Below, piece after piece: positions 3,895 through 46,406 of a DNA stretch of 64,000 bases. Position 1 is the first letter of the stretch; each line of letters opens with the position of its first letter. A model generated the notes under the pieces. It was not told the origin of the DNA. It searched no databases and worked only from the letters and a program-made list of their open reading frames with translations. The stretch is from Deltaproteobacteria bacterium (GTDB lineage: Bacteria > Desulfobacterota > Desulfomonilia > Desulfomonilales > Desulfomonilaceae): positions 1 to 64,000 of the forward strand of contig VGSG01000008.1 in the NCBI GenBank assembly GCA_016875095.1, given 5' to 3'. The translations under genes and the position numbers were made by a program.

Positions 3895-6800
3895 GAGAAC
3901 CGCAACGGCAAATCATAGCGGCATCGGCGCAAAAGGCCGGTCTCGGCCTTGTTCTGATTCTAGCGCTATGCTCGTTTTTGTTTGGCGCCGACACGTGGAA
4001 GGCTCATGCGCAACAGCGTGATCAGGGCAAGGCCGAGAAAGCCGCGCCCTCTGAACAGCAACCGCCGCCGGAGAAAGGTCCCCCCAGCCCAAGCCGTCTG
4101 TATGAGAGCATTCAAGGATATCTGAGAGGGGTCCAGCAGAGCGATGCCCCTCAAAAGAGGCTCCACCCGCGCACAGACCGGTACCTGCCGGTAAGCCCGA
4201 CAATCCCGGAAGACGATGGCGCGGAGCACCGTCGGATCGTCGAGCGGGAGACAGACCTGGCGCGATCCCGAATGCAGAGAAAAGAGTGGGCTCTGGCCGC
4301 GCAGGCTCTGGAAAGGGCTCTCGCGGCCGCAACACACCTGAAGCCTGAAGCCAGACCGGCAGAGCTCCGAGCCATGCTGGCTGAAGCGCGCTCCAAGCTT
4401 TTAGCGGGGCAAGGGGCAGAACCGGTCGCAGGACGAGAAACCACCAATTCCATAGGCATGAAGCTTGTGCTGATTAAGCCGGGCATGTTCCTCATGGGGA
4501 GTTCGTCCGCCGAGGTGCGCCGCGTGGAGAGCGAGTGGAACGTCCAACGAGAGACCCTGGAATCAGAGGAGCCCGATCGTTCGGTGCGCATTTCCAACCC
4601 GTTCTACATCGGGAAGTACGAAGTGACGGTCGGGCAGTTCAAGCGGTTCGTGGAGGAGACCGGCTATCGCACTGTCGCAGAAAAACAGGGCTCGGGATGG
4701 GTCTACGATCGAGACAAAAACCATTGGGCTCAGAAACCGGGCGCATCCTGGCGCAACCCGGGCGTGGAGGTCTGGGAGGATCATCCCGTCAGCATGGTGA
4801 GCCATGAGGACGCGGAAGCTTTTTGCAAGTGGCTCAGCGCCAAGGAGAGGATTCAGTACCAATTGCCCACAGAGGCGCAATGGGAGTACGCTGCTCGCGG
4901 TGGAAAGGAAGGGGAACGTTTCACCTGGGGGAACGATTACCCGGACGGCGCGAAACTGAATTCAGCCGACCGCCGCTCTCCGGTTCCCTGGGCGGACCGG
5001 ACGATCGACGACGGCTATGCGCAGTACGCGCCGGTTGGGAGCTTCGAGCCGAACGGCTTCTGGCTGTACGACATGGCCGGCAATGTGTGGGAGCTGTGTC
5101 AGGACTTCTTTGCCGCAAAGCCGGCAGATAAGGACTCTTCCGGCGCGATCGTGGATCCATCGGGGCCGCGCAGTGGGACGATGAGAGTCGTTCGAGGAGG
5201 ATGCTGGGCCTTTGGCGCGGGCATTGCCAGGAATGCTTTCCGATTTGGCGTCCAAACGAATCTCGTGGTGGACATGTCCGGATTCAGGGTAGTGGCTTCT
5301 CCGTCGCAGGCTGATTCGGCTGCGCGTGTGGCCCTGTCTAAGCCTGCCGCCGGAGACACTTCGCGCGCTGATTCGTACGATGACCTGGTCTCTCGCGTCA
5401 AGGATCTCGTTTCCAATGGCCGTCGAGCCGAAGCGCGGCGATTGGCCGACGAATATCTGAATTCTTCCGGCGCAGGGGCCACGCCGGATCTCCAACCCCA
5501 GGCTGTCTTGAAGCGGGCGCTGGAATCATTGATCGATGTGTCGAAAGATCAACGGACGGTGTCGTTCACCAATTCGCAAGGTATGAAGATGGTGCGAATT
5601 CCCGCGGGATCGTTCGTCATGGGCAGCTCCGAAGCCGACATTGCGTGGGCCATCACCACGCTTGCTCAAGGCGCGCCGGTTTCCCTGGAGAACGAGTATC
5701 CTTTCCACAAGGTAAGGATAACCCGACCGTTCTTCCTCTCCATGCATGAGGTCACGGTGGCGCAGTTCCGGGCTTTTGTGGAAGCGACCGGGTATGTGAC
5801 CGACGCGGAAGCTGACGGAGGCGGCCAGGTCTTCAACGCGGATCGGAATCGCTTTGAGGTCAAAGAAGGTAGCTCTTGGCTCAATCCCGGTTGGAAGATC
5901 GAGGATTCCCAGTCGGTTGTCATGGTCTCTTACTATGATGCGCAGGCCTACGTGGATTGGCTGACCGCGATCGAAAAACTCCCGTACAAGCTTCCCACCG
6001 AGGCCCAGTGGGAATACGCGTGTCGAGGCGGACTCCCCATGGCCCAATTCCCGTGGGGCGATTCGCTCCCTGACGGACGCAAAGCCAACTACGCGGACAA
6101 GAACACGGACTTCCAATGGCGCGACCGGTACGCGGACGACGGGCACAAGCACGTAGCGCCGGTCGGCTCCTATGAACCCAACGGTTTCGGGCTGTGCGAC
6201 ATGGCCGGAAACGCGCTCGAATGGGTAAACGATTATTATGGGGACGATTACTATCGGTTCACCCCCGAGGTGGATCCCGAAGGACCAGGCACGGGTGAGC
6301 ACCGGGTCATGAAAGGGGGCGAATGGACCTTCGGCGCGGTGAACCTAAGGTGCGCGTTCCGCGGGTGGTCGCGGCCGGAGCTGGCGCTGTATAACACGGG
6401 CTTTCGCGTAGCCATAGACACGGGCTCGGCCCGCAGACCGTTCCATTTCGCGAGCGATTTCCTTACCAAGGAATGGGTTCCCGGGCCTGATCAAAGAGAA
6501 GTGGCCCAGGCAGTGGCGCGGGAAAAGGAAAGGCAGGGAGCGACCAGAACAACTCGTGCCACCGACACTGCGGCCCCTGGTCCTCAACTGCCTGCTGAGC
6601 CGCCTGTGCGAGGCGTCATGGTGATGGGGTTCACTCCCAAGTCCGACGCAAAGAAGGCGGGGCTGGCGGTGGGGGACGTTATCATCGAGTACGACGGGGT
6701 CCGAGACCTTACCGCCGAGAAATTCCTTGCCCTGACCGCGCGCACAAGTAAGGGCCGAAAGAAGCCCATGCTCATTCTGGTGAGGGACGGTTATGAGTAC

Positions 6801-30392: not shown

Positions 30393-32516
30393 TTGGAGAG
30401 CTCTCAAATTGGGGTGTGGGACCTCAATCTTCAAACATGGGAGGCGTTCTATGATGTGACATCGGGTGGGATGTTCGGCTATGCGCCGGATGACTACATT
30501 TGGACGGTGTCCGGGTGGGGTAGCCTTGTCCATCCGGACGATCTTCGTCCGATTAGAAAAGCGTTCAACGCGCACGTCAGAGGAGAGACCCCCGGTTACG
30601 AGTGCGAGCACCGGATACGCGCAAAGTCCGACGAGTGGCGTTGGAACCTTGCCAGAGGCAGGGTGGTGGAATTCGACCGGAACGGCGCTCCGCTGAGGAT
30701 GGTGGGAACCAACCAGGATATTACCGAGCGGAAACTCCTTGAAGAAGATCTCAGAGCCTTGCGGGCCGATTTCGGAGATGACTCGGAGAGTCGCGTGACC
30801 GCGCCCGAGGAAGCCGGTCTTGATTACAAAGGCCTTATGGAAAAGGTCAAAGCGCTGAGCGGCCGGCTTCGCGCCTCCTTCGCAAGATATCAATTATTAA
30901 TTGATAACCTTCGTGAAGGCATTTGTGTCGCCGAAGGCGGGTTCCTCCGGTTCGTGAATCCTTATGGCGCTCATATTATGGGGTATTCTCTTGATGAACT
31001 CATGTCACGACCTTTCATGGAATTCGTGCATCCCGAAGACCGCGACTTCGTCATAAAACGATACCTACTTCGATTGCAAGGGCAGCTCGAAGGTGGGGAC
31101 ACGAGCTTTCGGATCATACATGCTTCAGGAGAGACGAGGTGGCTCGAAGGCGCAACGGTGCGCGTGGCGTGGGAAGGTAAACCCGCAGTCTTGATGGTTG
31201 CCTCGGATGTCACGGAGCGTCGAGAAGCCGAGGAAGAGCTTCAAAGGTCGGAGCAGCTCCTGCGGCTTACGTTCGACACCATGGGCAGTGGACTGCTGAT
31301 CATAGGCCCCCATGGTGAGATCCTGATGGCGAATCTGTATGCGCGGCATTGTCTTGGACTTGATGACACCAGTATCGGCCGAACGCTCTTGGAAGTCCTT
31401 CAAGACGTGGGCCACTGGGAGGGTCTCAATCACCACGAAACCAAAGCCTCCACCACGATAACCTTGCGGAACGGAAAACGAAAGACCATCGGTTACAACT
31501 GCGCGAGTCTTGAAGCCGAGGGGTCTTATATGCTGCTGTTCAGGGACTTGTCGGCCCTCGCAGAGAGTGAGGAGCGGCGGCGAAGGGCGGAGCAATTGGC
31601 TCTCGTGGGCGAAACCGCGGCGAGATTGGCTCACGATATCAAGAATCCTCTGACAAGCGTTCTTTCCGGGCTTCATGCGCTGAGAAGTTCGAAGAATCTG
31701 ATCTCTGAGGACCGTTACATTGTCGAGTTGGTCCTCGATGAGGTGCGGTCGCTGAATGCGACCGTGAAACATCTCTTGGAGGGGACTCGCACGTCGAGTA
31801 TGACCGTAGCTCGGGTTGATGTGCGCGCTCTCTTGGCGGGGCGCCTTGAATTTCATAAGCTGATGGCGCAAAGCGCCGGAGTTCATATATCTCTCGCGGA
31901 GGGTCCGGAGGGTGTTTTCGTAACGGGAGACGACCAATCCCTCCGCCGAGTCCTCGACAATCTTGTCCAGAATGCTCTTGACGCCTGTGGGAGGGGCGAT
32001 TCCATTCGATTGGGCTGGCGGATCGTGCCGCAGCCCGAAAAGCATTTACTGGCCGGTGATTTCTCCGAAACAGTGGTTGGGATCTCTGTAGAAGATACAG
32101 GCCGGGGCCTCTCCGACTCCATTAGCAAGTCCGGCTTGTTTAGACCCTTCGTGACGACCAAGTCTTCCGGCAGCGGCCTCGGGCTTGCGGTGTCCCAGGA
32201 AATCGCCGAAATACACGGGGGATGGATACGGGTGGGTTCATCGCGGGACAAGGGGACTACCTTTGAAATGCTGTTGCCCGCAGGCGATCGACCCCGATGC
32301 TGGGAGAGCAGATGCGCGACAAAAGATTGTGGGCCTCAATCCGAGAATGGATGTTTGCGTTGCGAAGTCAAGATGTCCGGGTCTGACACCTTCTGTTGGG
32401 TTTTGAGGGGTCTTACTCACAGGGCGGAGACGGGCGTCTGGCCGGATAGATGCCTCAACTGTTTCGTATTCCGGCAATCGGTTTTCCTGGCGCCTGACAA
32501 GCCGCCAGGTGTCTGA
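30393..32516 (+). CDS. Cytoplasmic multi-PAS histidine kinase with Cys-rich tail
   Basis: 707 residues, TTG start; the gene lies between the receiver gene and the NtrC-type gene. Three PAS domains: about 5-120 (ending VGTNQDITERK), about 165-285 (ending VASDVTERREA) and about 290-395. The HisKA domain has His414 (ARLAHDIKNPLTS); the ATPase has LVQNALDAC (N box), VEDTGRGL and SGSGLGLAVSQEIAEIHGG. No transmembrane helix is seen. The last 75 residues carry nine cysteines, including CWE, CLRC, FCW and CLNC, in a pattern resembling two-CW-type cysteine-rich domains, possibly a metal or FeS site for redox sensing. The likely partner is the NtrC-type protein 15 bases downstream. Confidence 0.9.
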   Translation: MESSQIGVWDLNLQTWEAFYDVTSGGMFGYAPDDYIWTVSGWGSLVHPDDLRPIRKAFNAHVRGETPGYECEHRIRAKSDEWRWNLARGRVVEFDRNGAPLRMVGTNQDITERKLLEEDLRALRADFGDDSESRVTAPEEAGLDYKGLMEKVKALSGRLRASFARYQLLIDNLREGICVAEGGFLRFVNPYGAHIMGYSLDELMSRPFMEFVHPEDRDFVIKRYLLRLQGQLEGGDTSFRIIHASGETRWLEGATVRVAWEGKPAVLMVASDVTERREAEEELQRSEQLLRLTFDTMGSGLLIIGPHGEILMANLYARHCLGLDDTSIGRTLLEVLQDVGHWEGLNHHETKASTTITLRNGKRKTIGYNCASLEAEGSYMLLFRDLSALAESEERRRRAEQLALVGETAARLAHDIKNPLTSVLSGLHALRSSKNLISEDRYIVELVLDEVRSLNATVKHLLEGTRTSSMTVARVDVRALLAGRLEFHKLMAQSAGVHISLAEGPEGVFVTGDDQSLRRVLDNLVQNALDACGRGDSIRLGWRIVPQPEKHLLAGDFSETVVGISVEDTGRGLSDSISKSGLFRPFVTTKSSGSGLGLAVSQEIAEIHGGWIRVGSSRDKGTTFEMLLPAGDRPRCWESRCATKDCGPQSENGCLRCEVKMSGSDTFCWVLRGLTHRAETGVWPDRCLNCFVFRQSVFLAPDKPPGV

Positions 32517-32531
32517 CCGGAACGCAGGGCA

Positions 32532-33932
32532 ATGTTTGAGAGAATTCTTATCGTTGATGACGATGTCCAACTAGCGAAGAGTCTTGAGTTCTTGCTGAAA
32601 CGCGAGGGATATCATGCGTTAAGCGCTCACCACGGCGCCGAAGCGCGTAGGCTTGTCTCAAGCGCCTATCCCGACGTGATCCTCCTGGACCTGGGGCTTC
32701 CCGATGTAGACGGCATCACCCTCATGGGCGAATTGCGTCAGATCCATCAGGATGCCTGCTTTCTTATCGTCACGGCGAACACGGCCATAAAGACCGCCGT
32801 GGCGGCCATGCGCAACGGAGCGACCGATTACCTGACAAAGCCGTTCGAAGCCGAGGAACTCACCTTGGCAATAAGTCGGGCGATCCGGGACCGAATCAAG
32901 GACGAGGAAATAATCCGACTGCGAAAAGAAGCCAGGCCGTTACCTCGGCCTTTAGCGAATGCTACGGCAGCTTCCGGTCCTCCGTCACCATATCCCTCCA
33001 AGTCAATGCGCGGAGTTCTTGCTCAGGCGAAACAGGCCGCGGACCGGAACACCATCGTCCTGCTCCTGGGCGAAAGCGGGGCCGGAAAGGATTACGTGGC
33101 CAAGTTTATTCACGAATGCTCGCCCCGGGCCGGCGGACCCTTCTTTTCCATCAACTGTGCGGCCGTTTCTTCCGAACTTGCCGAATCGGAACTGTTCGGA
33201 CACGAGCCCGGCGCCTTTACCGGAGCGAGAGGGCGGAAGCGAGGCCTGCTGGAACTTGCCGATCAAGGCACGTTGCTGTTGAACGAGGTGGGAGACCTAC
33301 CGCCGCCCTTGCAAGCAAAACTGCTGACGTTCCTTGACACCAAGGAATTCACCCGCGTCGGAGGGCAGATCCAAGTCCTCTGCAAGGCGCGTATCATCGC
33401 CGCCACAAACAGAAATTTAGAGCGAGAGGTAGCCGGGGGCAGATTCAGGGCCGATCTTTACTATCGACTCAACGTGTTTTCGGTCACCGTCCCGCCACTG
33501 CGGGAAAGGGTTTTGGATATACCTCTTCTGGTTCGCGATATCGTACAGCAATTGGTGGATGAAATGGGGTTCCCCGAAGCCCCGCAAATCGACGGAGAGG
33601 CCATGGATTTACTCTGCAACTACCATTGGCCGGGGAACGTGAGGGAGCTTCGGAATGTGCTGGAACGAGCCTTGATTCTCTGCAGCGGGCAGCGAATAAC
33701 GCCCTCCTGTTTGACAATAGGAAGCGGCCCTCGGGAGGGCCCGGAATGGTCATTCACTGTAGGTTTCCCCAGCGGCCAAACGATTCACGAGGTAATTTCA
33801 GAGGCCAAAGGCTCTCTGATTGCCGAGGCCCTGCGTCGTTCGCGGAACAGCAAACAAGGAGCGGCCAAGCTCCTTGGCATTTCTCGCCACGCTCTTGCCC
33901 ATCAGATGAAGTTTCTCGCCATTAACGAGTGA
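32532..33932 (+). CDS. NtrC-family sigma-54-dependent response regulator
   Basis: 466 residues. Receiver domain with Asp53 (DVILLDLGLPD) and Lys near 103 (YLTKPFEAEE). AAA+ activator domain at about 155-385: Walker A GESGAGKDY near 180, the sigma-54 loop GAFTGA near 226, and LLLNEVGDLPP for Walker B. A Fis-type HTH ends the protein (KQGAAKLLGISRHALAHQMK). It should oligomerise on DNA and open sigma-54 promoters when phosphorylated. Directly downstream lie a perfect palindrome and a sigma-54 promoter candidate, which makes the following operon its likely target. Confidence 0.95.
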   Translation: MFERILIVDDDVQLAKSLEFLLKREGYHALSAHHGAEARRLVSSAYPDVILLDLGLPDVDGITLMGELRQIHQDACFLIVTANTAIKTAVAAMRNGATDYLTKPFEAEELTLAISRAIRDRIKDEEIIRLRKEARPLPRPLANATAASGPPSPYPSKSMRGVLAQAKQAADRNTIVLLLGESGAGKDYVAKFIHECSPRAGGPFFSINCAAVSSELAESELFGHEPGAFTGARGRKRGLLELADQGTLLLNEVGDLPPPLQAKLLTFLDTKEFTRVGGQIQVLCKARIIAATNRNLEREVAGGRFRADLYYRLNVFSVTVPPLRERVLDIPLLVRDIVQQLVDEMGFPEAPQIDGEAMDLLCNYHWPGNVRELRNVLERALILCSGQRITPSCLTIGSGPREGPEWSFTVGFPSGQTIHEVISEAKGSLIAEALRRSRNSKQGAAKLLGISRHALAHQMKFLAINE

Positions 33933-34020
33933 GGGGCACGCACCTTCCTCGTCCGCGCGAGTGATTTCCACGCATTGCGGCAATCGTAACTGCCGGTAAT
34001 TACAGGGTCACGACATTAGG

Positions 34021-34035
34021 GCGTGATAATCACGC
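34021..34035. promoter_or_regulatory. Perfect 15-base palindrome, possible upstream activator site
   Basis: GCGTGATAATCACGC, two seven-base arms around a central A. It lies 111 bases before the candidate sigma-54 promoter, a typical distance for an enhancer of an NtrC-type activator, whose gene ends 89 bases upstream. Binding is inference. Confidence 0.55.
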
Positions 34036-34146
34036 ATCTCAGCGCCAATCCTGCCACGGATAAGCCTCTTCCCTTCCCCTCGCATGACGCGCCTAATTAG
34101 CTGCTATTATTATACAATCTCGTTTCCCCTTTCATGCGTCCGCTCT

Positions 34147-34162
34147 TGGCACAGAACGTGCT
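34147..34162 (+). promoter_or_regulatory. Sigma-54 (RpoN) promoter candidate
   Basis: TGGCACAGAACGTGCT matches TGGCAC-N5-TTGCW except for one base, with the GG and GC at the required ten-base spacing. The predicted start is near 34172. It points at the receiver/roadblock/MglA operon and leaves a long leader containing the GC-rich hairpins at 34256-34309. Confidence 0.6.
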
Positions 34163-34255
34163 CCAAGGATGCAACAGTATGGCTCAACACCGCCCGTATC
34201 CCCATAGGCGTTTCAGTAAGCAGGTTGGTGATTTAGCGGGCTCCCTCTCACCCTG

Positions 34256-34309
34256 CCCTCTCCCGCCAGGGGAGAGGGTTTCCGGCCCCCCTCCCTTGAC
34301 GGGAGGGGG
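34256..34309. repeat. Two tandem GC-rich hairpins, REP-like
   Basis: First stem CCCTCTCCC (34256-34264) with GGGAGAGGG (34270-34278) around five bases. Second stem of nine pairs, C-rich 34287-34295 with G-rich 34301-34309, around TTGAC. Each is perfect. The sequence style matches widespread bacterial intergenic REP-type repeats; only this copy was seen in the window. It may slow transcription from the sigma-54 promoter or protect the mRNA. The rest of 33933-34532 has no ORF with a start site. Confidence 0.55.
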
Positions 34310-34532
34310 AAGGGGGCGGGTGATAACGAGCTGTAATCAAAGAGGCCGATTCCTTATTTGAAGCGCTATAGCCCGTATCCCGCAATGCGTGCGTTAAGCC
34401 GGCGCCCAAAACCGCGGCTTACCAACCGAGAGAAAGGCGGGACGAGTCACCATAGAACTTCAGTTCAGAGGAACATCGTCTGTTGAGAGCGCAAGAATGA
34501 GGTTATTACCGGTGCAACAGGAAGTCGGCATT

Positions 34533-34745
34533 ATGCATGACAAAATCGAGTTACTTATGCAGAGAGCGCGCAATCAAGACCGACTCCTTGAACAGCTTTC
34601 CGCCCAACTTGACGAAATCAGGACCGGCAATAGGGACCTTTCAGAGTTGGCGAGAAAAGTGGGCGAGCTAACGCTCGCCGTCGATGGACTCAAGGATTGG
34701 GTTCGCACGAGCCACGACCCATTCGCGGGATTACCGGAGCGATAA
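34533..34745 (+). CDS. Small coiled-coil protein
   Basis: 70 residues from ATG 34533 (AGGAAG eight bases upstream); ATG 34497 in the same frame has a poorer site. The sequence is almost one amphipathic helix with heptad-like Leu/Ile spacing (LLEQLSAQLDEI and LARKVGELTLAVDGL), so it should dimerise as a coiled coil. No family recognised. It is the first gene after the sigma-54 promoter candidate and lies 86 bases before the receiver/HisKA-like gene, so it may be a small adaptor of the signalling row. Confidence 0.5.
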   Translation: MHDKIELLMQRARNQDRLLEQLSAQLDEIRTGNRDLSELARKVGELTLAVDGLKDWVRTSHDPFAGLPER

Positions 34746-34831: not shown

Positions 34832-35476
34832 ATGGAGCGCACCGAAAAAGAGATCACAAGGATCTTGTTCGTGGAGGACCACGCGTCGCTGGCTTATATC
34901 ATGTGCTCGAACCTGGAAATGATGATCCCAGGGATACAGGTATTGAGAGCCGACTCCTGTTGGATGGCTCGTGAAATCGCGCTGGAAACCGGTCCGGAAT
35001 TGATAATCACGGACGTAAGGTTGGCTGACGGTGACGGTTTAGAACTCCTGGAAGAATTGTCGGCAATGATTCCCGGTGTGCGGGCCATCGTAACGAGCGG
35101 CGCAGCCCCCAACAAGAACAAGCGCTCAACGGATTTTGCCTTCCTTCCCAAACCCTACGAACCGCAAGATCTGGTTGACCTGGTGAAAAGCAAACTCGGC
35201 TTGCGGCGAAACGACAAAACGGATGAAGGTCCAAGCGCCTCTTCACCGCCGCACAGCGAAACGCCTTTCAGATATGACCCCCATCATCTACGAAACCGAC
35301 TCGCCGCTCTCTTGGCCGGTCTTAGGGTCTTGCAAGTGGAGCTGACGGTCCAGGCGGACGACCCGCAAGCCGTCCTACGCATTGCGAATGAGCAGGCGCC
35401 AAGACTGATTGAAATCACAGGGGAAATCTCTCGAATGCTACGCGAGTCGGAACATCGCCGTCTGAGGTCGGAATGA
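34832..35476 (+). CDS. Response regulator with C-terminal HisKA-like helical domain
   Basis: 214 residues. Residues about 10-125 are a receiver: LFVEDHASLA, acceptor Asp in LIITDVRLADGDG, Ser in IVTSGAA and Lys in FLPKPYEPQDL. After a Ser/Pro linker, about 150-205 is a helical pair that reads like a HisKA dimerisation domain (HHLRNRLAALLAGLRVLQ), with His151 or His152 where a phospho-acceptor could sit, but no ATPase domain follows. It may act as a phosphotransfer or decoy protein. Its stop overlaps the next start (ATGA). Confidence 0.8.
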   Translation: MERTEKEITRILFVEDHASLAYIMCSNLEMMIPGIQVLRADSCWMAREIALETGPELIITDVRLADGDGLELLEELSAMIPGVRAIVTSGAAPNKNKRSTDFAFLPKPYEPQDLVDLVKSKLGLRRNDKTDEGPSASSPPHSETPFRYDPHHLRNRLAALLAGLRVLQVELTVQADDPQAVLRIANEQAPRLIEITGEISRMLRESEHRRLRSE

Positions 35477-36207
35477 GCGACTGCAAGGGAACGGTGCTGC
35501 TGGTTGATGACGACCCGGAGGTGACCTGGGGAGTCGGGCGTTACCTCACTCGCGTGGGGTTTGCCGTGCACACCTGCGGGGATGGGGCCGAAGCGATTTC
35601 ATTATTGGAAGCCGGAGCATTCGATTTCGTCGTTACCGACATCAAAATGCCCCGCATGAATGGCCTGGCTCTTGTGGATTGGATGCGCGAGCACCGGCCG
35701 AGCGCAAAGGTTGCGGTAATGACCGCCTTTGGGGGACCGTCGATCCGAGCGATGAGCATAAGCAAGGGAGCGATGCTCTACTTGGAAAAACCGGTGGACC
35801 CGGAGTTCCTTGCCGATGTGTTGACTTCCACCTCGGAAGAGAAAGCCTTCTCAGGTCGAATCGACCAAATCGACATTCTTGATTACGTGCAACTCATCAT
35901 GCTCACCGGCAAGAAACTCGTTGTGGAAGTGCATTCCGGACAGGGAACTCACGGCGAGCTGTTCGTTGACAACGGCGCCATCATCCATGCGATGTGCGGC
36001 GAACTCGAAGGTGAAGAAGCAGTCTACCGGTGCCTAAGCTTCGAAGGGGGCAGCTTCCTGAACACACCGTGGAGGGAACCGCAGAAGGTTTCGGTATACA
36101 GACCGGGCGATTTTCTGCTGATAGAAGCTGCCAGAAAACGGGACGAGAGGAGATGCGGACCGTCAGGAACGATTGAAGATCGTCTCAACGTGAAGGACGA
36201 CGGGTGA
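35473..36207 (+). CDS. Response regulator with PATAN/DUF4388 output domain
   Basis: 244 residues. Receiver at about 5-122 with LLVDDDPEV, acceptor Asp in FVVTDIKMPRMNG, Thr in AVMTAFG and Lys in YLEKPVDPEF. The output part (about 130-215) is DUF4388/PATAN: LDYVQLIMLTGKKLVVEV, GELFVDNGAIIHAMCG and EEAVYRCLSFEGGSF. PATAN domains occur with roadblock/GTPase signalling proteins and are thought to mediate protein contacts. It overlaps the preceding gene by four bases and likely carries the phospho-signal to the GTPase module. Confidence 0.87.
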   Translation: MSDCKGTVLLVDDDPEVTWGVGRYLTRVGFAVHTCGDGAEAISLLEAGAFDFVVTDIKMPRMNGLALVDWMREHRPSAKVAVMTAFGGPSIRAMSISKGAMLYLEKPVDPEFLADVLTSTSEEKAFSGRIDQIDILDYVQLIMLTGKKLVVEVHSGQGTHGELFVDNGAIIHAMCGELEGEEAVYRCLSFEGGSFLNTPWREPQKVSVYRPGDFLLIEAARKRDERRCGPSGTIEDRLNVKDDG

Positions 36208-36250: not shown

Positions 36251-36727
36251 ATGAATGAAGATGCGGCCCAAAACCCCGGCCCCGTAACTCATATTCTTTC
36301 CTCGTTGATCGAAAGATCGGGAGCATTAACCGCATTGTTGGTGAGTAAGGAAGGAATGGTTATCACCGAAGCGGGAGACACGTCATACCTGAACACCACC
36401 GCCATGGCCGCGCTTGTGGCGGGCATGTTTTCCGCAACGCGTGAAGTGGCCCGCATCGTGGGTGAGAAACATTTTTCCATACTGCTTCAGCAGGGCGAGA
36501 GTCGCCATATTCACATCAGTCTCATACACGATTCAAAGATGATGGTTCTCATCTTCGAGGATCATCAGCGCATCGGTTTGGTTCGTTACGAGGCCCGACG
36601 GGCCGGAGAAGAGCTGAACAGCATACTGATGCCCACACTCAAGCCATCGGAAGCCGAACAAATCAGCACACCTCAATTCAAAGAATATGCCTTGAATTTG
36701 ATCGACCGCATTTTTCAGGCCAAGTGA
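36251..36727 (+). CDS. Roadblock/LC7 domain protein (MglB-like)
   Basis: 158 residues. A roadblock fold covers about 10-125: ALTALLVSKEGMVITEAGD, MAALVAGMFSATREVA, and the hydrophobic strand KMMVLIFEDHQRIGLVRY. MglB-type roadblock dimers are GTPase-activating partners of MglA. The gene ends three bases into the GTG-ATG region of the MglA gene, so the pair is probably made together, as in Myxococcus mglBA. A Ser/Glu-rich C-terminal extension of about 30 residues is present. Confidence 0.88.
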   Translation: MNEDAAQNPGPVTHILSSLIERSGALTALLVSKEGMVITEAGDTSYLNTTAMAALVAGMFSATREVARIVGEKHFSILLQQGESRHIHISLIHDSKMMVLIFEDHQRIGLVRYEARRAGEELNSILMPTLKPSEAEQISTPQFKEYALNLIDRIFQAK

Positions 36728-36738
36728 AGGACGGGACG

Positions 36739-37320
36739 ATGCCGCACATCAATTATGAATCCAAAGAGCTGGCTTTCAAAATGGTCTACTACGGGCCGGG
36801 CTTGAGCGGCAAGACAACCAACCTGGTCTATATCCATAAGGCTCTGGAAGCCGGACGAAGGGGCGATATCATTACTTTGGACACGGAAGAGGAGAGGACT
36901 TTGTTCTTTGATTTCTTTCCGCTCGATCTGGGTCGGATCGGCGGCTACAACATCCGGCTGCACATGTACACCGTGCCGGGCCAGGTCTACTACGAGGCGA
37001 GTCGCCGGCTCATCCTTGACGGCGCGGACGGCATTGTCTTTGTCGCGGATTCCCAACAGGACAGACTCAACGAGAATGTCAACAGCTTTCGCATGTTGCA
37101 AGAGAACCTTGGCGATTACGGGGTCAACTGGAAAGAGTTTCCGCTCGTCCTTCAGTACAACAAGCGTGATCTGGCCGACATCCTGCCTCTGGGGACTCTG
37201 GAAGGTCAGCTCGGTTTGAACGGCATTCCGGTGTTGGAGGCCGTGGCCATCGCGGGGACGGGTGTGATGGAAACGATCCGTGTCGCCAGCCGCGAGGTCA
37301 TCGAACGGTTCCAGATGTGA
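36739..37320 (+). CDS. MglA-type small Ras-like GTPase
   Basis: 193 residues from ATG 36739; a GTG at 36724 overlaps the upstream stop and would add five residues. P-loop GPGLSGKTT (about 14-22 of the domain), switch region with EERTLFFDFFPLD, MglA-specific TVPGQVYYEASR, and base-binding NKRD. This is the bacterial MglA family (polarity switch for motility in Myxococcus), not Era or Obg. The presumed GAP is the roadblock protein just upstream; effectors may be the PATAN proteins. Expected location is cytoplasmic, possibly polar. Confidence 0.92.
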   Translation: MPHINYESKELAFKMVYYGPGLSGKTTNLVYIHKALEAGRRGDIITLDTEEERTLFFDFFPLDLGRIGGYNIRLHMYTVPGQVYYEASRRLILDGADGIVFVADSQQDRLNENVNSFRMLQENLGDYGVNWKEFPLVLQYNKRDLADILPLGTLEGQLGLNGIPVLEAVAIAGTGVMETIRVASREVIERFQM

Positions 37321-37345: not shown

Positions 37346-38041
37346 ATGGCGCTCAAAGGAACGTTGGCGGATCTTGGGATTGTGGATCTTATCCAGTTTC
37401 CCCACGCGGGCCGCAAGACCGGACATCTGATGATTACGGGACCGGACGGGGACGCAAGGCTGTTCTACGAGAACGGCGCCCTGGTGCACGCAAGTCTGAA
37501 TGATATTCACGGCATGGACGCCCTTGTGCGAATCGTGGACTGGGGCGAGGGCTCCTTCGAGTTCATGCCCGATCTTCAATCTCAAGAACGCACGATTGAA
37601 ATCGACCTCCATCGCGCGGTCATGCAAGCGCTCAAGCTTCACGACGAACTGAAAATGGAAGAAGAAAAGAGGAAATCCGGAAAAACGGCAGGTGAAAGCA
37701 TGCAGGACGAAAGCCTTCGCGCCAAGCTTGAGGAATTCGTTGCCGCAAACGATTTTGCGATGCACGCGGGAGTTCTTTCTCCTGAAGGAACGGTCAAAGC
37801 TTCCGCGGACGGGCCCGATGGATCTCCGGACAAGATCGATCGGCTCAGAGAAGCGCTTCATGCGTTCGTGCAGGCCTATCCGCGCGGCGGCTTGAGTCGC
37901 ATCCTCCTGCAGGACGAACTGGGTGTTGTGGCGCTCGTGATGCTGCCGGACGGCGGATCTTTGATCGTGGTTGCCGCCAAGGAAGCGTCACTGGGAACTG
38001 TTTCCGTGGGCGTAGGCAGATTAGCCCTGGGAATCGAATGA
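37346..38041 (+). CDS. PATAN/DUF4388 - roadblock fusion protein
   Basis: 231 residues from ATG 37346 (GGTGGAG eight bases upstream). About 1-100 is a DUF4388 domain: GTLADLGIVDLIQFPHAGRK, ARLFYENGALVHA and ALVRIVDWGEGSFEF. A charged helix follows (DELKMEEEKRKSG). About 125-231 resembles a roadblock domain (FAMHAGVLSPEGTVKA; GVVALVMLPDGGSLIVVAAK). It joins in one chain the two interaction modules found in the neighbouring genes and may bridge the receiver-PATAN protein and MglA. Its stop overlaps the start of the DnaA-like gene (ATGA). Confidence 0.85.
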   Translation: MALKGTLADLGIVDLIQFPHAGRKTGHLMITGPDGDARLFYENGALVHASLNDIHGMDALVRIVDWGEGSFEFMPDLQSQERTIEIDLHRAVMQALKLHDELKMEEEKRKSGKTAGESMQDESLRAKLEEFVAANDFAMHAGVLSPEGTVKASADGPDGSPDKIDRLREALHAFVQAYPRGGLSRILLQDELGVVALVMLPDGGSLIVVAAKEASLGTVSVGVGRLALGIE

Positions 38042-39207
38042 TGTGGCCGGCAATGGCAGACGAACCCAAAACAAAGGGTGGCCGCGGACTCCCGGACTTT
38101 CTGCGGGTCAGTGTGCTCAGAGGAGTTCTCGACGAGCGTACGGCAGAGCGCGTGGAGCTTTACCGCCGAACCAGAGGGCTCGGATTCTTCGAATCCCAGT
38201 CCGCGTTTCTCAACGACCCGCCCGATCCGGACCTTACGTTTGATAACTTCGTCGTGTGCAAAGGCAATTCTTTTGCACTTGAACTGGCCCATACCGTGGT
38301 TACGAAATCTTCGTCCCGATCACCCTACAACCCCCTCTACATTTACGGAGACATCGGGCTGGGGAAAACCCATTTGCTTTCCGCCATCGCAAATGCGGCG
38401 GAGGACAAGAGAGTCTTGTTGCTCAATGTTTCCGACTTTGAGACGGAAGTGGAAAGGGCCAATAGACTGTGCAAAAGGGCGGAGCTAAGGGACTGGCTTT
38501 ATTCCGCGGAAATCCTTCTCTTGGACGATATTCAACTCTGCGAAAGCCGCGAGGATGTGCAGCGAGATCTCTTCGCAGTTCTCAACTACATGATGCGCAC
38601 GCGGCGGTGGGTGGTGATCACCTCCGATGTTCCCCCCACACGCCTGGCAGGTGTGGAGTCACGGCTTCTGTCACGGCTCGGTGCCGGAGTCATCGTAAGT
38701 CTGCATATGGGAGACCGGATCGAGCGGCGCGCTTTTGTCGAGTCATTCCTCGATGAGCGTCCCATGCCCGAAGAAGTCATTGATTATCTGGCCGAGAACG
38801 TCAGCGAAAATGTGCGCCGCCTCAAAGCTGCGGTGACACAGTTGCTCATACTCAATGAGGCGAACGCGGGGCCCTTGACCCTCGACGCGGCCAGGGAATT
38901 CCTGGCGCCCCAGGACGCGCCGGGCCGTGCAGGCGGCATTCCCGTCCCAGATCCCGGGGCGCCGACGTCCGGGTATCATCAAGAGCCGAAACTTCCGCAG
39001 ACGGTAGTAAGTCGTTTCAAGGAGATGCTCGATGAAGCGGAGAGCGAAGATGAGCAGGCGCTCGCTCTACAGATCGCCTTGGGAGAAAGAATACGCCAAC
39101 TCCGAAAGGAGGAAGGAACCGAAGAGGCCGTTGAGAAACTGGAACAGGCGCTGAACCTACTCAGGCAAGGCAGACGAGAGGAGGCAATACGATGCATAAG
39201 TACCTGA
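38038..39207 (+). CDS. DnaA-like AAA+ ATPase without DnaA DNA-binding domain
   Basis: 389 residues. After about 60 divergent residues (GLPDFLRVSVLRGVLDE), TFDNFVVCKGNSFA opens a DnaA-type AAA+ core: YNPLYIYGDIGLGKTHLL (Walker A 104-111), LLLDDIQ (Walker B 160-166), TSDVPP (sensor I, 195-200), arginine-finger candidate Arg213 and ENVRRLKAAVTQLL (sensor II, 257-270). The domain IV helix-turn-helix that binds DnaA boxes is absent; instead a charged coiled coil ends the protein (about 325-385). It overlaps the PATAN-roadblock gene, so its partners are probably signalling proteins rather than oriC. A role like Hda, acting on replication, cannot be excluded. Confidence 0.88.
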   Translation: MMWPAMADEPKTKGGRGLPDFLRVSVLRGVLDERTAERVELYRRTRGLGFFESQSAFLNDPPDPDLTFDNFVVCKGNSFALELAHTVVTKSSSRSPYNPLYIYGDIGLGKTHLLSAIANAAEDKRVLLLNVSDFETEVERANRLCKRAELRDWLYSAEILLLDDIQLCESREDVQRDLFAVLNYMMRTRRWVVITSDVPPTRLAGVESRLLSRLGAGVIVSLHMGDRIERRAFVESFLDERPMPEEVIDYLAENVSENVRRLKAAVTQLLILNEANAGPLTLDAAREFLAPQDAPGRAGGIPVPDPGAPTSGYHQEPKLPQTVVSRFKEMLDEAESEDEQALALQIALGERIRQLRKEEGTEEAVEKLEQALNLLRQGRREEAIRCIST

Positions 39208-39452: not shown

Positions 39453-39917
39453 ATGGCAACAGACAGAATCGACACAAGAGCGGTGCAGGGGGTCCTCTAC
39501 GGGATCTACAAAGCGCTCCACGGCGTTGTAGGGGAAAACTCGGCGGCGGTAATGCGCAGAGCCGCGCCGGATATCCTCGACATGCTGGGCAAGCTGGGAG
39601 TGGATTTCTCCTGTGTGGACGACGTGAACAAGCTGTCCGCGAAGCTCGGAGAAACCATGGTGCAAGCCGGCATGTGCGAGAACATGGCCTTCACGCTCAA
39701 TGGAAGCGACCTGACTGCGGACATCACCCAGTGCTCCTTCTATCCGCTCACCATGAAGCTGAAAGAGGAGGGGATACCGCCTTTCGGGTGCCCGTTCGCC
39801 GCCTTGACCATTGCAATTGCGGAGAAAAACCTGGGGAAACGGGCTCGACTGAAGTTTTTGGAGCCGGTCGGCAAGCCTGGTGACACCCGACTGATCGTTG
39901 AACTTACGGATAAATAG
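39453..39917 (+). CDS. Four-cysteine protein associated with roadblock signalling
   Basis: 154 residues from ATG 39453, with AAGGAG seven bases upstream. Mixed alpha/beta, no signal peptide. Four single cysteines are spread through the protein: DFSCVDD (54), AGMCENM (75), TQCSFYP (93) and GCPFAALT (112). The layout (N-terminal helix, then strands with a Cys-Pro motif) loosely recalls the MetOD1 or V4R-type ligand-binding domains, but this is a weak match. It stands 42 bases upstream of a roadblock gene and may be the sensor or effector of that protein. Redox or metal binding is a guess. Confidence 0.6.
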   Translation: MATDRIDTRAVQGVLYGIYKALHGVVGENSAAVMRRAAPDILDMLGKLGVDFSCVDDVNKLSAKLGETMVQAGMCENMAFTLNGSDLTADITQCSFYPLTMKLKEEGIPPFGCPFAALTIAIAEKNLGKRARLKFLEPVGKPGDTRLIVELTDK

Positions 39918-39959
39918 GCGCCGCATCGCGCCGCCTAATGAACGTCAAGGAGGCACAAT

Positions 39960-40316
39960 ATGCCGAGCGTAAAGCAGAAGCTGAGCGAGTTGCTCAAGGT
40001 AGACGGGGTCAACACTGCGGTCGTGGTGGGTCGTGACGGCTTCGTCATCGACGGCTTGACCAACGGCGCCGCAATGGATGTGGAAGCCATCGGCGCCGTA
40101 ATATCAACCGGCGTGGGCACCGCCGAGGTAATGGGTCGAGAACTCAAGGTCGGCGCCATGAGCCAGGGGATGATGGAATACAAGGACGGCATCATCCTCA
40201 TGAGCTTCCTTGGGAGAGAAGCCATACTGGCCTGCGTGGCAGAGGCCAACGCGAACCTGGGCAACGTGCGTTACCAGATAAAGAAGTTCTCCCCCGAGAT
40301 CCAAGCTACAATCTAG
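39960..40316 (+). CDS. Roadblock/LC7 domain protein (single domain)
   Basis: 118 residues, AAGGAGG seven bases before the ATG. The roadblock fold fills the whole protein: LKVDGVNTAVVVGRDGFVID, IGAVISTGVGTAEVMG, and YKDGIILMSFLGREAILACV. It is closer in size to archaeal-type and MglB core domains than the longer roadblock protein of the MglA pair. It could dimerise or pair with the PATAN-roadblock protein. Followed by a UUCG hairpin that probably ends the transcript. Confidence 0.9.
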   Translation: MPSVKQKLSELLKVDGVNTAVVVGRDGFVIDGLTNGAAMDVEAIGAVISTGVGTAEVMGRELKVGAMSQGMMEYKDGIILMSFLGREAILACVAEANANLGNVRYQIKKFSPEIQATI

Positions 40317-40480: not shown

Positions 40481-41260
40481 GTGGTGGCTCTCAAGCTGTT
40501 AGAACTGGCGGAGTCGGGTGAGGTTGATGGACTTCTCAAGCTGATCCACGGCGGCTTGAGTCCGGACCTGCGGGACGGATACGGACGAACCGCCCTCATG
40601 TTGGCGGCGAGAGAGGGACACGAGCATGTGGTGAGAGCGCTTCTTCAGGCAGGCGCTCATGTGGGCGCCGCGGACGAAGAGGGTGACACCGTCCTCATGA
40701 GGGCGGCCATGGAGGGCAGGAAAGCTGTGGTTAGGCTTCTCCTGAGGGCTCGCCCCGACACGGAGGCTCGAGATAGATACGGCTTCACCGCGTTGATTCG
40801 AGCTTCCATGAATGGACATACGGAAGTTATGGAACTGCTCCTGGCATCAGGAGCGGCAGTTGATGCGAGTGACCGCAACGGGAGAACTCCCCTGATCTGG
40901 GCCGCGCTCCGGGATCATCTGGGCGCCGTTCAACTGCTCGTCGAGAAAGGGGCTTTCGTGGACGCGAGGGGCGAAAGAAACAGCACCGCGCTCATGGAGG
41001 CGGCGTTCAGAGGACACGCGGAGGTGGTAGATCTATTGCTCGCTCGCGGGGCGGACATCGACGCGGTCGACACAGGCGGTTTCACTGCTCTTGCCTTGGC
41101 CTTGAGAAGACGCCACCCGGCTACGGCAAAACTGTTGCTTGCACATGGGGCGGAGACAAATACCGTGGATCACTTCGGTCGTACGCCTTTGATGTGGGCT
41201 CGCTCAGCCGGCATGAACGAGGTTGTTGACACGCTGCTGGCCGCGGCGCCGACACGGTAG
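40481..41260 (+). CDS. Ankyrin-repeat protein
   Basis: 259 residues; starts at GTG 40481 or at the next GTG, 40484, which is better spaced from AAGGA. About seven 33-residue ankyrin repeats fill the protein, each with the G-TAL-A-G or G-TPL-A pattern (GRTALMLAAREGHEHVVRALL; RTPLIWAALRDHLGAVQLL; STALMEAAFRGHAEVVDLL). No signal peptide, so a cytoplasmic binding scaffold is likely. It closes the signalling block, but a hairpin and operator-like repeat separate it from the roadblock gene, so it may be regulated separately. Confidence 0.9.
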   Translation: MVALKLLELAESGEVDGLLKLIHGGLSPDLRDGYGRTALMLAAREGHEHVVRALLQAGAHVGAADEEGDTVLMRAAMEGRKAVVRLLLRARPDTEARDRYGFTALIRASMNGHTEVMELLLASGAAVDASDRNGRTPLIWAALRDHLGAVQLLVEKGAFVDARGERNSTALMEAAFRGHAEVVDLLLARGADIDAVDTGGFTALALALRRRHPATAKLLLAHGAETNTVDHFGRTPLMWARSAGMNEVVDTLLAAAPTR

Positions 41261-43115: not shown

Positions 43116-46100
43116 CTAAGCCAGTGTTCCAACTTCGGGCAACGTATCCTGTTCCTTGATGTAACGGTACAGGGATTGGCGTGATATTCCAAGCAGTTCA
43201 GCCGCTACCGTCCTGTTGCCCGCGGACCGGCGTAGGGCCTCGACACACAGACTGCGCGTCACTTGGTCAATGATATCCGGCATGTTGTTCGCCTCGGGAA
43301 ATAAGACTTCGTGTGACCACTCGCGCGGCCCGGTGGCTAGCGACGGGATTTCTATTTCCAGTTTGGCTCCTCTCGAGAGCATCACCGCTCGCTCGAGAAC
43401 GTTGCGCAATTCTCGGACATTTCCCGGCCAACCGTACGAAGCAAGCTTCTCCATGTCTTGCGACCCTATAGCGGGCACCTGAGTCAGGCGCATATCGGTT
43501 GCAAGGTCGAGGAGGATCTCCTCCACAATGACGGGGAGGTCTTCGAGCCGCTCTCGGAGCGCAGGAACTCGCACAGTGTAAACATTGAGTCTGTAATAGA
43601 GCGCCTCGAGAAATCGGCCCTGCTCCACTTCGGCGCGCAGGTCCCTATGTGTTGCGGCAATGAGGCGCGCATGTACTCGGATATCCTTTTCACCCCCCAC
43701 CCTGGTAAAGGAGCGCGTGTCCAAGAAGGTGAGAAGCTTGGACTGAAGGTTGAGAGGAAGCTCGCCGACCTCGTTGAGCAACAGAGTGCCTCCCTCGGCC
43801 AGCTCCAAGAGACCTCGTTTCTTGGCGATGGCGCCGGTGAACGCCCCTCGTTCGTGGCCGAACAACTCAGATTCGGCCAGCTCCCGAGGAATGGCCGCGC
43901 AGTTTACGGAGAAAAACGGGCCGTCCGCACGCTTGGATTTGCTGTGAATCCACCTTGCCATATAGTCTTTACCGGTTCCGCTTTCACCGAGGAGCAGAAC
44001 GATGCCGTCCGTTTCCGCCGCCTGCCGTCCCCGCTCCAGGGTCGCTATCATGCTCGGGGACAAATATTCCCGCTGTGTAAATGTCCGCACCGGCTGGACG
44101 CCCTTGCGACCGGTAATGTTTCGAGAGAACTTGCACACGCCGACTACCGCTCCCGCGCTGTCTCTCAGCGGAGTCCGAATATCGTGAAAAGTCAGGTTCA
44201 TGCCACGCACCGGCCTGGTGTGTTCATCTTCGACGGTTTCGCCTGCCAAAACTCTCAGGTCTCCTTCGAGTATGTGGCTTGCCGCTTCCGGGCCGAAAAA
44301 ATCCTCCGACCGTTTTCCGATAATCTCGGGCGCGGGCAGTCCGAACAACGTTTCTACCGCAGGGTTTACGTGGGTGTATCGCAAATCGAGATCTTTGAGG
44401 AAGATACAGTCTCGCGCAACCTCGAAGATCGTGCGGAAGCGTTCTTCACTTGTTCGCAAAGCCTCTTCGGCCTCCCTCCGTTCGGTGATGTCGCGGCCCA
44501 GAGAGAGCACGGCTCGCTCGCCCTTGAATGTTGTCGGGAGCGCGACGGATTCCAGGTAGCCTACCGAGCCGTCCGCGCGTAATAACTGCACTTCCGTAAA
44601 ATCCGATACGACTCCGCTGCGCTCCGCTTCCTGGATTCTCTTTGAAACAACTTCACGAAATTCAGGATGGATGAAGTCCAGAAGAGGCAGGCCCATCAGT
44701 TTGTCGGTATTCTCAACCCGAAAAAATCTTGCCGCTGCCGCGTTACCGAAAAGGATGCCGCCGCGGTGCACAATCATTGGGTCGGGTGAGATATCAAACA
44801 GCTCACGATAACGGCGCTCACTCTCGAGCAGGGCTTCCTGGGCCCGTTTCCTCTCTGTCACGTCCTGAACAATGCCCTCGGTTGAGACCAGGTCCCCATG
44901 TTCGTTCAGGATGGGACGCGCGTGGAGAGAAGCCCATATGGGTCTGCCGTCCTTACGTCGTAATTCCACTTCAAAGCCATGAAGCACCTGGCCTTTACGG
45001 ATGAGACGAATGAATTCCTCGCGCTGACCTGAGTGCAGGTAGATGCCGTCACCCATCTCCTTCCCGGCTCGAAGAAGTTCCTCCGGCGAGTCAAAACCAA
45101 GAATGTGGGCTGAGGCCGGATTGGCATGCACCAGGTGGCCGCGCGCATCGGTTTGAAAAATGCCGTCGACGGCATGCTCAAATATGCCTCTATACTTCTC
45201 TTCGCTCAGCCTGAGCGTTTCTTCCGCGCGCTTGCGAACGGTTATATCCCGGACGATCCCGATTGTGTACCAGATCCCTTTCATGTTGACGACGGACGCG
45301 GACAATTCTATGGGGAAGCGACTCCCGTCGCTTCTGGAAGCTATGAACTCGGCCGTGTTTCCGTCACGTTCCTCTTCGACGCCGCGCATGTAAGAAGAGT
45401 TGCGCTGAGGTTGTTCAGCTTGAGCCGTTTCGTAGGAATTGGAGAGCTCAAGCCCTTTCAACTGGAGGAAATCGGCTGGTTGCTGGCCGAGCAGGACACG
45501 GACATTGTGTCCAACCGGATCGTAATCCAGCTCCAGGATCTTCACTAAAGCCGTATTGGATCTGCGCGTAATGCCATATGAATCGATTACCAACAAACCA
45601 TCCGCAAGGTTATCGCTGATTGCGGAAACATAGGTCAACGTTTCCTGGAGTTCCTGGGTAGCTTCAGAAACCTCTCGCTCCAGCGTTTCCATACGGCTCT
45701 CAATTTCGGACGCCATGTTGGTCATGGTCCTCGCCAGGACGCCAACCTCATCCCGTGACCGTATGTCCACCACCGCGCTAAATTCTCTGTTGGCAACCTT
45801 GTTCGCGTAATGGGTGAGCTCTATGAGGGGGCGGGACATCTTGTTCGTGAGCACATAAGCGATGCCTACGCTTAGCAGGAAGATCATGAACGTGACCGCG
45901 TGAAGCTTTACGATCGTCCACCACATGTAAGACATCACGCCGTCCAGATCCATGCCCACGTGAACATGCCCGGCCACCCCCGAGAGTATGGGCGATGAAA
46001 TGTCGAGATAGTTTCCTTCGCCTTTGAGGCGAACATTAGTGACGATAACCTCGTCCGTGTTTTCCCTGGGCTGCTCAACCACCTTGCGCAATTCGTACGG

Positions 46101-46406
46101 CACGCTGGGCGCAAACGTGTGGGAGAGAAATTCGCCGTCTTTGTTGACCACCAGGACATAGGAAAGCCCCTTAGTCTCCCTTAGTTGATCGACGATGGAC
46201 TGAATTGTGGACGCATCCCTGTTGAGGATTATTTCCATGCTGGAGTGGGCGATGTTATTGGCTATGGCGATCGCTTTACTCTTGTACTCGTCTATGATTC
46301 TGTCATAGAGTATCCAGCCAGCGACTGCGGATATGATTGTTGCAACCACCCCGAACAAGAGGGTCATCATGATCAAAGTTTTCTTAAATAATTTTGACAT
46401 CGTCAC
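43116..46406 (-). CDS. Membrane-anchored multi-PAS sigma-54 activator
   Basis: 1096 residues. Transmembrane helices at about 10-33 and 168-190 bracket a periplasmic sensor of about 130 residues; a HAMP domain follows ([19 protein letters not shown]). Four PAS domains fill about 265-770 (ends [46 protein letters not shown]). The AAA+ activator has Walker [10 protein letters not shown] near 805 and GAFTGA near 854, then a Fis-type HTH ([20 protein letters not shown]) at the end. No kinase or receiver domain: signal and transcription output are in one chain. Coupled (ATGA overlap) to the binding-protein gene upstream. Confidence 0.93.

Follow-up and report, generated by a model that had tools for sequence, protein, structure and literature searches.

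Genes for EBPs of the Desulfovibrionales are in many cases co-localised with the sigma-54 target (PMC4641369), and in D. vulgaris 7 of the 21 response regulators with found targets had them in adjacent operons (PMC3333781). NtrC-like regulators typically have several sites per promoter (PMC11841059). Since EBP-target co-localisation, adjacent-operon targets and multiple sites are already described in these accounts, the locus reported here is, as far as its sequence can tell, a well-preserved instance of a type of genetic switch that is already known. It lies in a genome of the Desulfomonilaceae, and the window, i.e., the whole stretch of 64,000 nucleotides that was analyzed, carries the following elements of the putative switch:

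30393..32516, plus strand: PAS-PAS histidine kinase (Pfam PAS_3, PAS_4, HisKA, HATPase_c), directly 5' of the regulator
32532..33932, plus strand: NtrC-type response regulator (Pfam Response_reg, Sigma54_activat, AAA_lid_14, HTH_8)
33926..33942, plus strand: dyad 1, CGAGTGAGGGGCACGCA, overlapping the regulator stop codon (leave-one-out matrix score 10.5)
33958..33974, plus strand: dyad 2, CGAGTGATTTCCACGCA (motif score 18.7, second-best in the 64-kb window)
34020..34036, plus strand: dyad 3, GGCGTGATAATCACGCA (motif score 22.3, the window's best), containing the palindrome 34021-34035
34147..34162, plus strand: candidate sigma-54 promoter TGGCAC-N5-GTGCT (-24 GG 34148-34149, -12 GC 34160-34161; predicted start near 34173)

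The regulator has a receiver - AAA+ - Fis-type HTH architecture (Response_reg 92.9, Sigma54_activat 208.3 and HTH_8 26.8 bits), with the GAFTGA loop present in its sequence and SRHALAHQMK as recognition helix. Among the named equivalogs AtoC scored best (377.5 bits vs. a cut-off of 714), while NtrC reached 343.9 vs. 558.6; since the protein stays under the cut-off of every NtrC-type equivalog listed (NtrC, AtoC, ZraR and others), it appears to be a separate, unnamed NtrC-type member. The genome also encodes sigma-54 (Sigma54_DBD 209.1 bits, G000:C62). Upstream of the kinase operon neither a dyad site nor a sigma-54 element was found, and autoregulation via the dyad motif is therefore unsupported. 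The 3' part of the kinase gene (32300-32516) encodes a cysteine-rich tail without Pfam match, and a similar tail ends the kinase of locus L050. On the minus strand, at 43116-46406, the window also carries a second sigma-54 activator (Cache-HAMP-PAS-AAA+-HTH) beside a periplasmic-binding-protein gene.

The first-pass annotation had placed a palindrome and a TGGCAC-N5-GTGCT match behind the NtrC-type gene, and its coordinates proved right to the base: GCGTGATAATCACGC, with perfect 7-bp arms flanking one base, occupies 34021-34035, and TGGCACAGAACGTGCT follows at 34147-34162, 111 bases beyond it, both between the stop codon of the NtrC-type gene (33932) and the next genes. TGGCACAGAACGTGCT shows one mismatch to the sigma-54 consensus TGGCAC-N5-TTGCW, with GG and GC ten bases apart. 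Neither the palindrome alone nor the promoter match alone is above chance in 64 kb. Allowing at most two mismatches, the palindrome was matched once vs. 0.38 times expected (at least once in 30 of 100 shuffles), and TGGCAC-N5-TTGCW 32 times in the window vs. 27.7 expected. A search restricted to GG-N10-GC and to agreement in no fewer than 10 of 11 consensus letters gave 34147 as the sole site in 64 kb, both strands included; the exact palindrome 15-mer occurs once in the 4.7-Mb genome. The window-only chance statistics being undecided, comparative tests were used, and it is their conservation at the same place in relatives that sets palindrome and promoter above chance.

The single palindrome annotated at first does coincide with a dyad, but there are three of these, the first overlapping the regulator stop codon. 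Their centres (33934, 33966 and 34028) are found at +2, +34 and +96 from the stop-codon end, dyad 2 lying 32 bp (~3 helical turns) from dyad 1 and 62 bp from dyad 3, and 120 bp separate the closest of them from the -24 GG. The right half of dyad 1 alone is matched by 0.05% of background positions, and the leave-one-out score of dyad 3 is attained by 0 of 1000 background segments. Several predicted dyads are thus present upstream of the promoter, as is typical of NtrC-type enhancers, and from their spacing we infer that they share a single helical face. The consensus of IHF is WATCAA-N4-TTR, and no such site was found at up to one mismatch in 34037-34146.

Downstream of the promoter, the following features point in the same direction:

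34242..34326, plus strand: REP-like double-hairpin repeat in the presumed leader
34497..34745, plus strand: small 82-codon ORF without family match, which may be the first gene on the transcript
34832..35476, plus strand: RR2 (Pfam Response_reg and a helical-hairpin C-terminal domain), the regulator's commonest neighbour
35473..36207, plus strand: receiver-DUF4388 protein (Pfam Response_reg, DUF4388)
36251..36727, plus strand: Roadblock/LC7 protein 1 (Pfam Robl_LC7)
36724..37320, plus strand: MglA-like small GTPase (Pfam Arf below cut-off, 20.9 vs. 22.3 bits; the name MglA is taken from the first-pass annotation)
37346..38041, plus strand: DUF4388 protein (Pfam DUF4388)
38053..39207, plus strand: DnaA-type ATPase-domain protein (Pfam Bac_DnaA)
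39453..40316, plus strand: conserved 154-aa protein and Roadblock protein 2 (the latter Robl_LC7)
40481..41260, plus strand: ankyrin-repeat protein (Pfam Ank_2), the last co-directional gene

From RR2 through the DnaA-like gene, neighbouring genes either overlap or are no more than about 45 bp apart, and the gaps before the last three genes are about 246, 43 and 165 bp. The row contains no sigma-54 element of at least 10/11 and three of 9/11; sigma-70-like matches number 4 vs. 3.2 expected, with none on the plus strand within the row. The leader between promoter and RR2 is 660 nt long. Its segment 34230-34330 has 52 matches in this genome, itself included, and locus L054 has a different hairpin repeat in the equivalent position, likewise between promoter and RR2. 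Weak relatives of the 82-codon ORF occur elsewhere in 2 of the 20 other genomes searched. The fold of RR2 was predicted with a mean pLDDT of 78.9 from 7 sequences vs. 51.3 (poor) from the single sequence, and the PDB matches listed for the model align mainly to the receiver domain. The RR2 receiver carries D61 and K107, and the predicted two-helix hairpin opens with H-x-x-(R/Q)-N, which is kept in 6 of the 7 aligned sequences. This hairpin is reminiscent of a histidine phosphotransfer (DHp) domain, and RR2 may act as a phosphorelay protein.

The NtrC-type protein was used to collect relatives (E <= 1e-115, aligned from residue 4) among 42 genomes of the class. Full-length close relatives were found in 8 of them, giving 10 loci including the window, three of which belong to genome G012; the loci are from the Desulfomonilaceae except for a single one from a different family of the class. 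Three further members come from Deltaproteobacterial MAGs (L089, L091) and a Myxococcales MAG (L092). Loci L085, L086, L087, L088 and L090 are the same as L050, L047, L053, L048 and L051, each place being counted once, and L048, which has neither a gap nor a promoter after its NtrC gene, was excluded from the spacing and leave-one-out tests and included in the 13-locus counts. Two Gammaproteobacterial helix matches (L093, L094) were rejected, as they showed another helix context, no site of at least 10/14 and no sigma-54 element of at least 9/11; they were excluded from later counts.

Of the 9 other class loci, 8 have a kinase homologue upstream of the NtrC gene (exception L049) and 7 have RR2 after it (exceptions L049 and L055); RR2 also follows the NtrC gene in the Myxococcales locus. 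The MglA row, in contrast to this common neighbour, was found behind the NtrC gene in just three loci of two genomes, the window and two copies in G012. A fourth MglA row, in genome G001, is situated behind other genes on a 5.4-kb contig that contains no NtrC, no RR2 and no sigma-54 element of at least 9/11. Other payloads comprise PBP-like proteins (L049), a CoA-ligase-type gene (L055), a second sigma-54 activator (L089) and a dehydroquinase after RR2 (L085). The first-pass annotation had aimed the promoter at the MglA row as a regulatory path from kinase to GTPase module. For the window this reading is supported, and the arrangement recurs in the two G012 copies; across the clade, however, the element tracks the NtrC gene and is followed most often by RR2, and the G001 row has neither NtrC gene nor promoter on its 5.4-kb contig. 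Within the row, the MglA-like GTPase has 73-74% identical relatives in G012 and G001, and the 154-aa protein and Roadblock protein 2 are 80-81% and 53-73% identical, respectively, to both G012 copies. The 154-aa protein (39453-39917), without Pfam or NCBIfam match, is the most conserved gene product of the row, and the DnaA-type ATPase-domain protein belongs to the row in all three NtrC-linked copies.

The motif derived from the clade loci is TGCGTGA-N3-TCACGCA, located between the NtrC-type gene and the sigma-54 element. In 9 of 13 clade loci a dyad with at least 11 of the 14 letters lies no further than 500 bp past the stop, vs. 0 of 9 for other NtrC-type genes (Fisher P 0.0017). With a leave-one-out matrix, which is a partial cure for the motif having been drawn from the regions tested, and in loci that share descent, 9 of 12 loci have a top site whose score none of the 1000 background segments attains; in the exceptions, L047, L051 and L052, it is attained by 5, 38 and 80 of the 1000 segments. 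Throughout the 42 class genomes, 31 places match the motif with at most one mismatch vs. 3 for the backward control; five of the 31 lie directly behind a clade NtrC gene, and nine others are one recurrent sequence of family f2. In G024, which belongs to another family, the window's 15-mer is found unchanged downstream of the NtrC relative. Other candidate targets were dismissed. The only other site of this genome with at most one mismatch to TGCGTGANNNTCACGCA, present on two contig ends (C23/C81), has no sigma-54 element of at least 9/11 in the surrounding 1.5-2 kb, and none is near the one-mismatch palindromes L002-L004 or G012:C619.

Regarding their placement, the dyad centres were located relative to the stop at +2 and +34 in L047, at -1 (weak), +31 and +96 in L050, at +2 and +33 in L092, at +2, +34 and +97 in L052, at +2, +34 and +99 (weak) in L053, at +2, +32 and +95 in L054, and at +2 (weak), +21 and +98 in L055. 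The pair-spacing sum over 12 loci was 54.6 at lag 32, vs. a best value of 11.7 at any lag in 100 shuffles. In a motif-free test, based on repeated palindromic 15-mers, 6 of 8 Desulfomonilaceae loci had 62-65 as their best lag, which ranked second in L053 and 26th in L047; its sum was 114 vs. a maximum of 104 in 60 shuffles; L055, L089 and L091 present a spacing of 74-77 in place of 62-65. As the left half of dyad 1 is partly coding and includes the stop codon, the non-coding right half was scored alone, resulting in a combined P of 7e-9 at the stop codon for all 13 loci. In L049 (genome G003, 5611-5627) the first strong dyad was found entirely within the 3' end of the NtrC frame, the C-terminus of the protein being extended. 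The strongest dyads of L047 lie 362-394 bp from its weak GG element.

Of the 13 clade loci, 12 have a GG-N10-GC element downstream of their NtrC-type gene. The distance between the NtrC stop and the GG is 188-235 bp in 8 of the 12, and 396, 511, 458 and 72 bp in L047, L089, L091 and L092, respectively. In an alignment of five loci (the window, G003, two of G012 and G024) TGGCAC and TGCT are invariant, while most other columns vary. The GGCAT-form elements of L089, L091 and L092 were chosen by eye, and L047 and L054 have weak ones (attained in 138 and 82 of 1000 shuffles), so that these five constitute the softer part of the promoter evidence. An NtrC-type gene followed by three predicted dyads and a putative GG-N10-GC element is an arrangement conserved beside the relatives. 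Both the recurrent element and the recurrent motif support the enhancer plus RpoN promoter proposed at first. Conservation in relatives had been suggested as a check on that proposal: dyads and -24/-12 elements do recur, but the palindrome has drifted in the two G012 MglA-row copies. The latter carry the helices SRNALFHHMK and SRFALAHQIK vs. the usual SRHA(L/F)AHQMK, and altered dyads, GCTTGTTTTACGTAC / GCTTGATTTCCGTAC and GTGCGAACATCACAC / GTGCGATGTACACAC, and in the background 38 and 80 segments out of 1000 attain the score of their best leave-one-out sites; promoter, promoter distance and the spacing within the pair (65 and 63) are retained. It may be that recognition helix and dyad drift together, for which these two cases are suggestive and not proof.

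Most likely, the NtrC-type protein binds the three-dyad array and activates the promoter at 34147-34162. We are rather confident that the whole chain, from the kinase through the NtrC-type protein, the three-dyad enhancer and the sigma-54 promoter to RR2 and the MglA row, operates as one switch. The kinase (30393-32516) would phosphorylate the NtrC-type protein, whose dimers would fill the three dyads; with spacings of 32 and 62 bp, they would sit on roughly one side of the helix. The dimers would form an active AAA+ oligomer and loop to the sigma-54 RNA polymerase at 34147-34162, and ATP use via the GAFTGA loop would open the polymerase-promoter complex. The resulting transcript, from near 34173, is expected to cover the 82-codon frame, RR2 and the row of receiver-DUF4388, Roadblock, MglA, DnaA-like, Roadblock and ankyrin proteins, in which RR2 would be the core target and the MglA row a payload attached in this lineage.

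The extent of the transcript is the point at which a different reading comes closest. Promoter and dyads could be real and NtrC-dependent, with a unit limited to RR2 (perhaps including the 82-codon frame) and an MglA row served mainly by other promoters. The prominence of RR2 among the neighbours, the restriction of the MglA row to three loci in two genomes and the G001 row, which exists without an NtrC-linked promoter, all speak for such a division; we nevertheless regard it as unlikely, as RR2 and the genes that follow it, up to the DnaA-like one, are closely spaced and the row offers no sigma-54 element of at least 10/11, its sigma-70-like matches being at chance level and absent from the plus strand inside it. 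It is less probable still that a different regulator binds the palindromes and that their place behind this NtrC-type gene is a coincidence. At E <= 1e-70 the NtrC-type protein has 14 matches in this genome, and several of these may bind related dyads. However, the dyads track this regulator clade across payloads and taxa and were not found behind the nine other NtrC-type genes, and it is in the two loci with altered helices (SRNALFHHMK, SRFALAHQIK) that the dyads have changed while keeping their spacing.

A role of the palindrome in RNA, for example as hairpin of a terminator of the NtrC-type gene, was also considered, given that it starts 89 bases past the stop codon and that L055 has a version with 14-bp arms. 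The hairpin would consist of six base pairs over three bases with no T run behind, it was not called as a terminator, and elsewhere the palindrome occurs as two or three phased imperfect copies; this explanation was rejected as very improbable. Searches for Rfam families and tRNAs gave no match. Mere chance, i.e., a random 7+7 palindrome joined by a random TGGCAC match, would agree with the counts for each of the two in 64 kb, but it is contradicted by their conservation at the same place in relatives and seems the least credible of all. The reading we prefer remains that of an NtrC-type protein acting through the three dyads on the sigma-54 promoter.

A broader view, which we offer tentatively and hold to be somewhat less probable than its opposite, is that kinase, NtrC-type gene, enhancer and promoter may form a portable cassette that moved between lineages and was joined to varied payloads, helix and dyad drifting together in duplicated copies at fixed spacing. 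The payloads would be RR2 alone, RR2 with the MglA row, a PBP-like gene, a CoA-ligase operon and a second sigma-54 activator. For the Desulfomonilaceae, the locus offers a concrete path, open to testing, by which a histidine kinase may reach a GTPase/Roadblock module. Furthermore, duplicated NtrC copies with changed helices and dyads at constant spacing are useful for studying how the Fis-type helices of NtrC-like regulators read DNA.

Compared with known systems, the locus resembles the EBP pairs of the Desulfovibrionales in that the regulator adjoins its predicted sigma-54 target, the upstream site is palindromic and the regulon appears small and local (PMC4641369). In the latter group, the largest fraction of promoters lies less than 100 nt from the nearest site, whereas here 120 bp separate dyad centre and -24 GG, and the dyad motif of this locus does not figure in the portions of the Desulfovibrionales account considered (PMC4641369). 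Likewise, in the open-licence literature searched, as far as its texts were accessible, neither the dyad motif nor the anchoring at the stop codon nor the fixed 32/63 spacing was seen. The glnA enhancer of NtrC in Escherichia coli consists of two strong dyads with centres 32 bp apart. Dyads 1 and 2 share this spacing, while glnA differs in its motif, in its promoter distance and in having no known tie to the regulator stop codon. NmpR of Myxococcus xanthus is also an NtrC-like response regulator with several dyads per sigma-54 promoter; it differs in its dyad, GCGCA-N5-TGCGC, in the 14 bp between the sites at mxan_4236 and in a regulon of several operons (PMC11841059). Finally, the row shares with the MglA-MglB polarity modules of Myxococcus and relatives the combination of a Ras-like GTPase and Roadblock proteins. 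Unlike those modules, as they are described in the sources consulted, it is placed behind a putative NtrC-type switch and is accompanied by receiver-DUF4388 and DnaA-like proteins.
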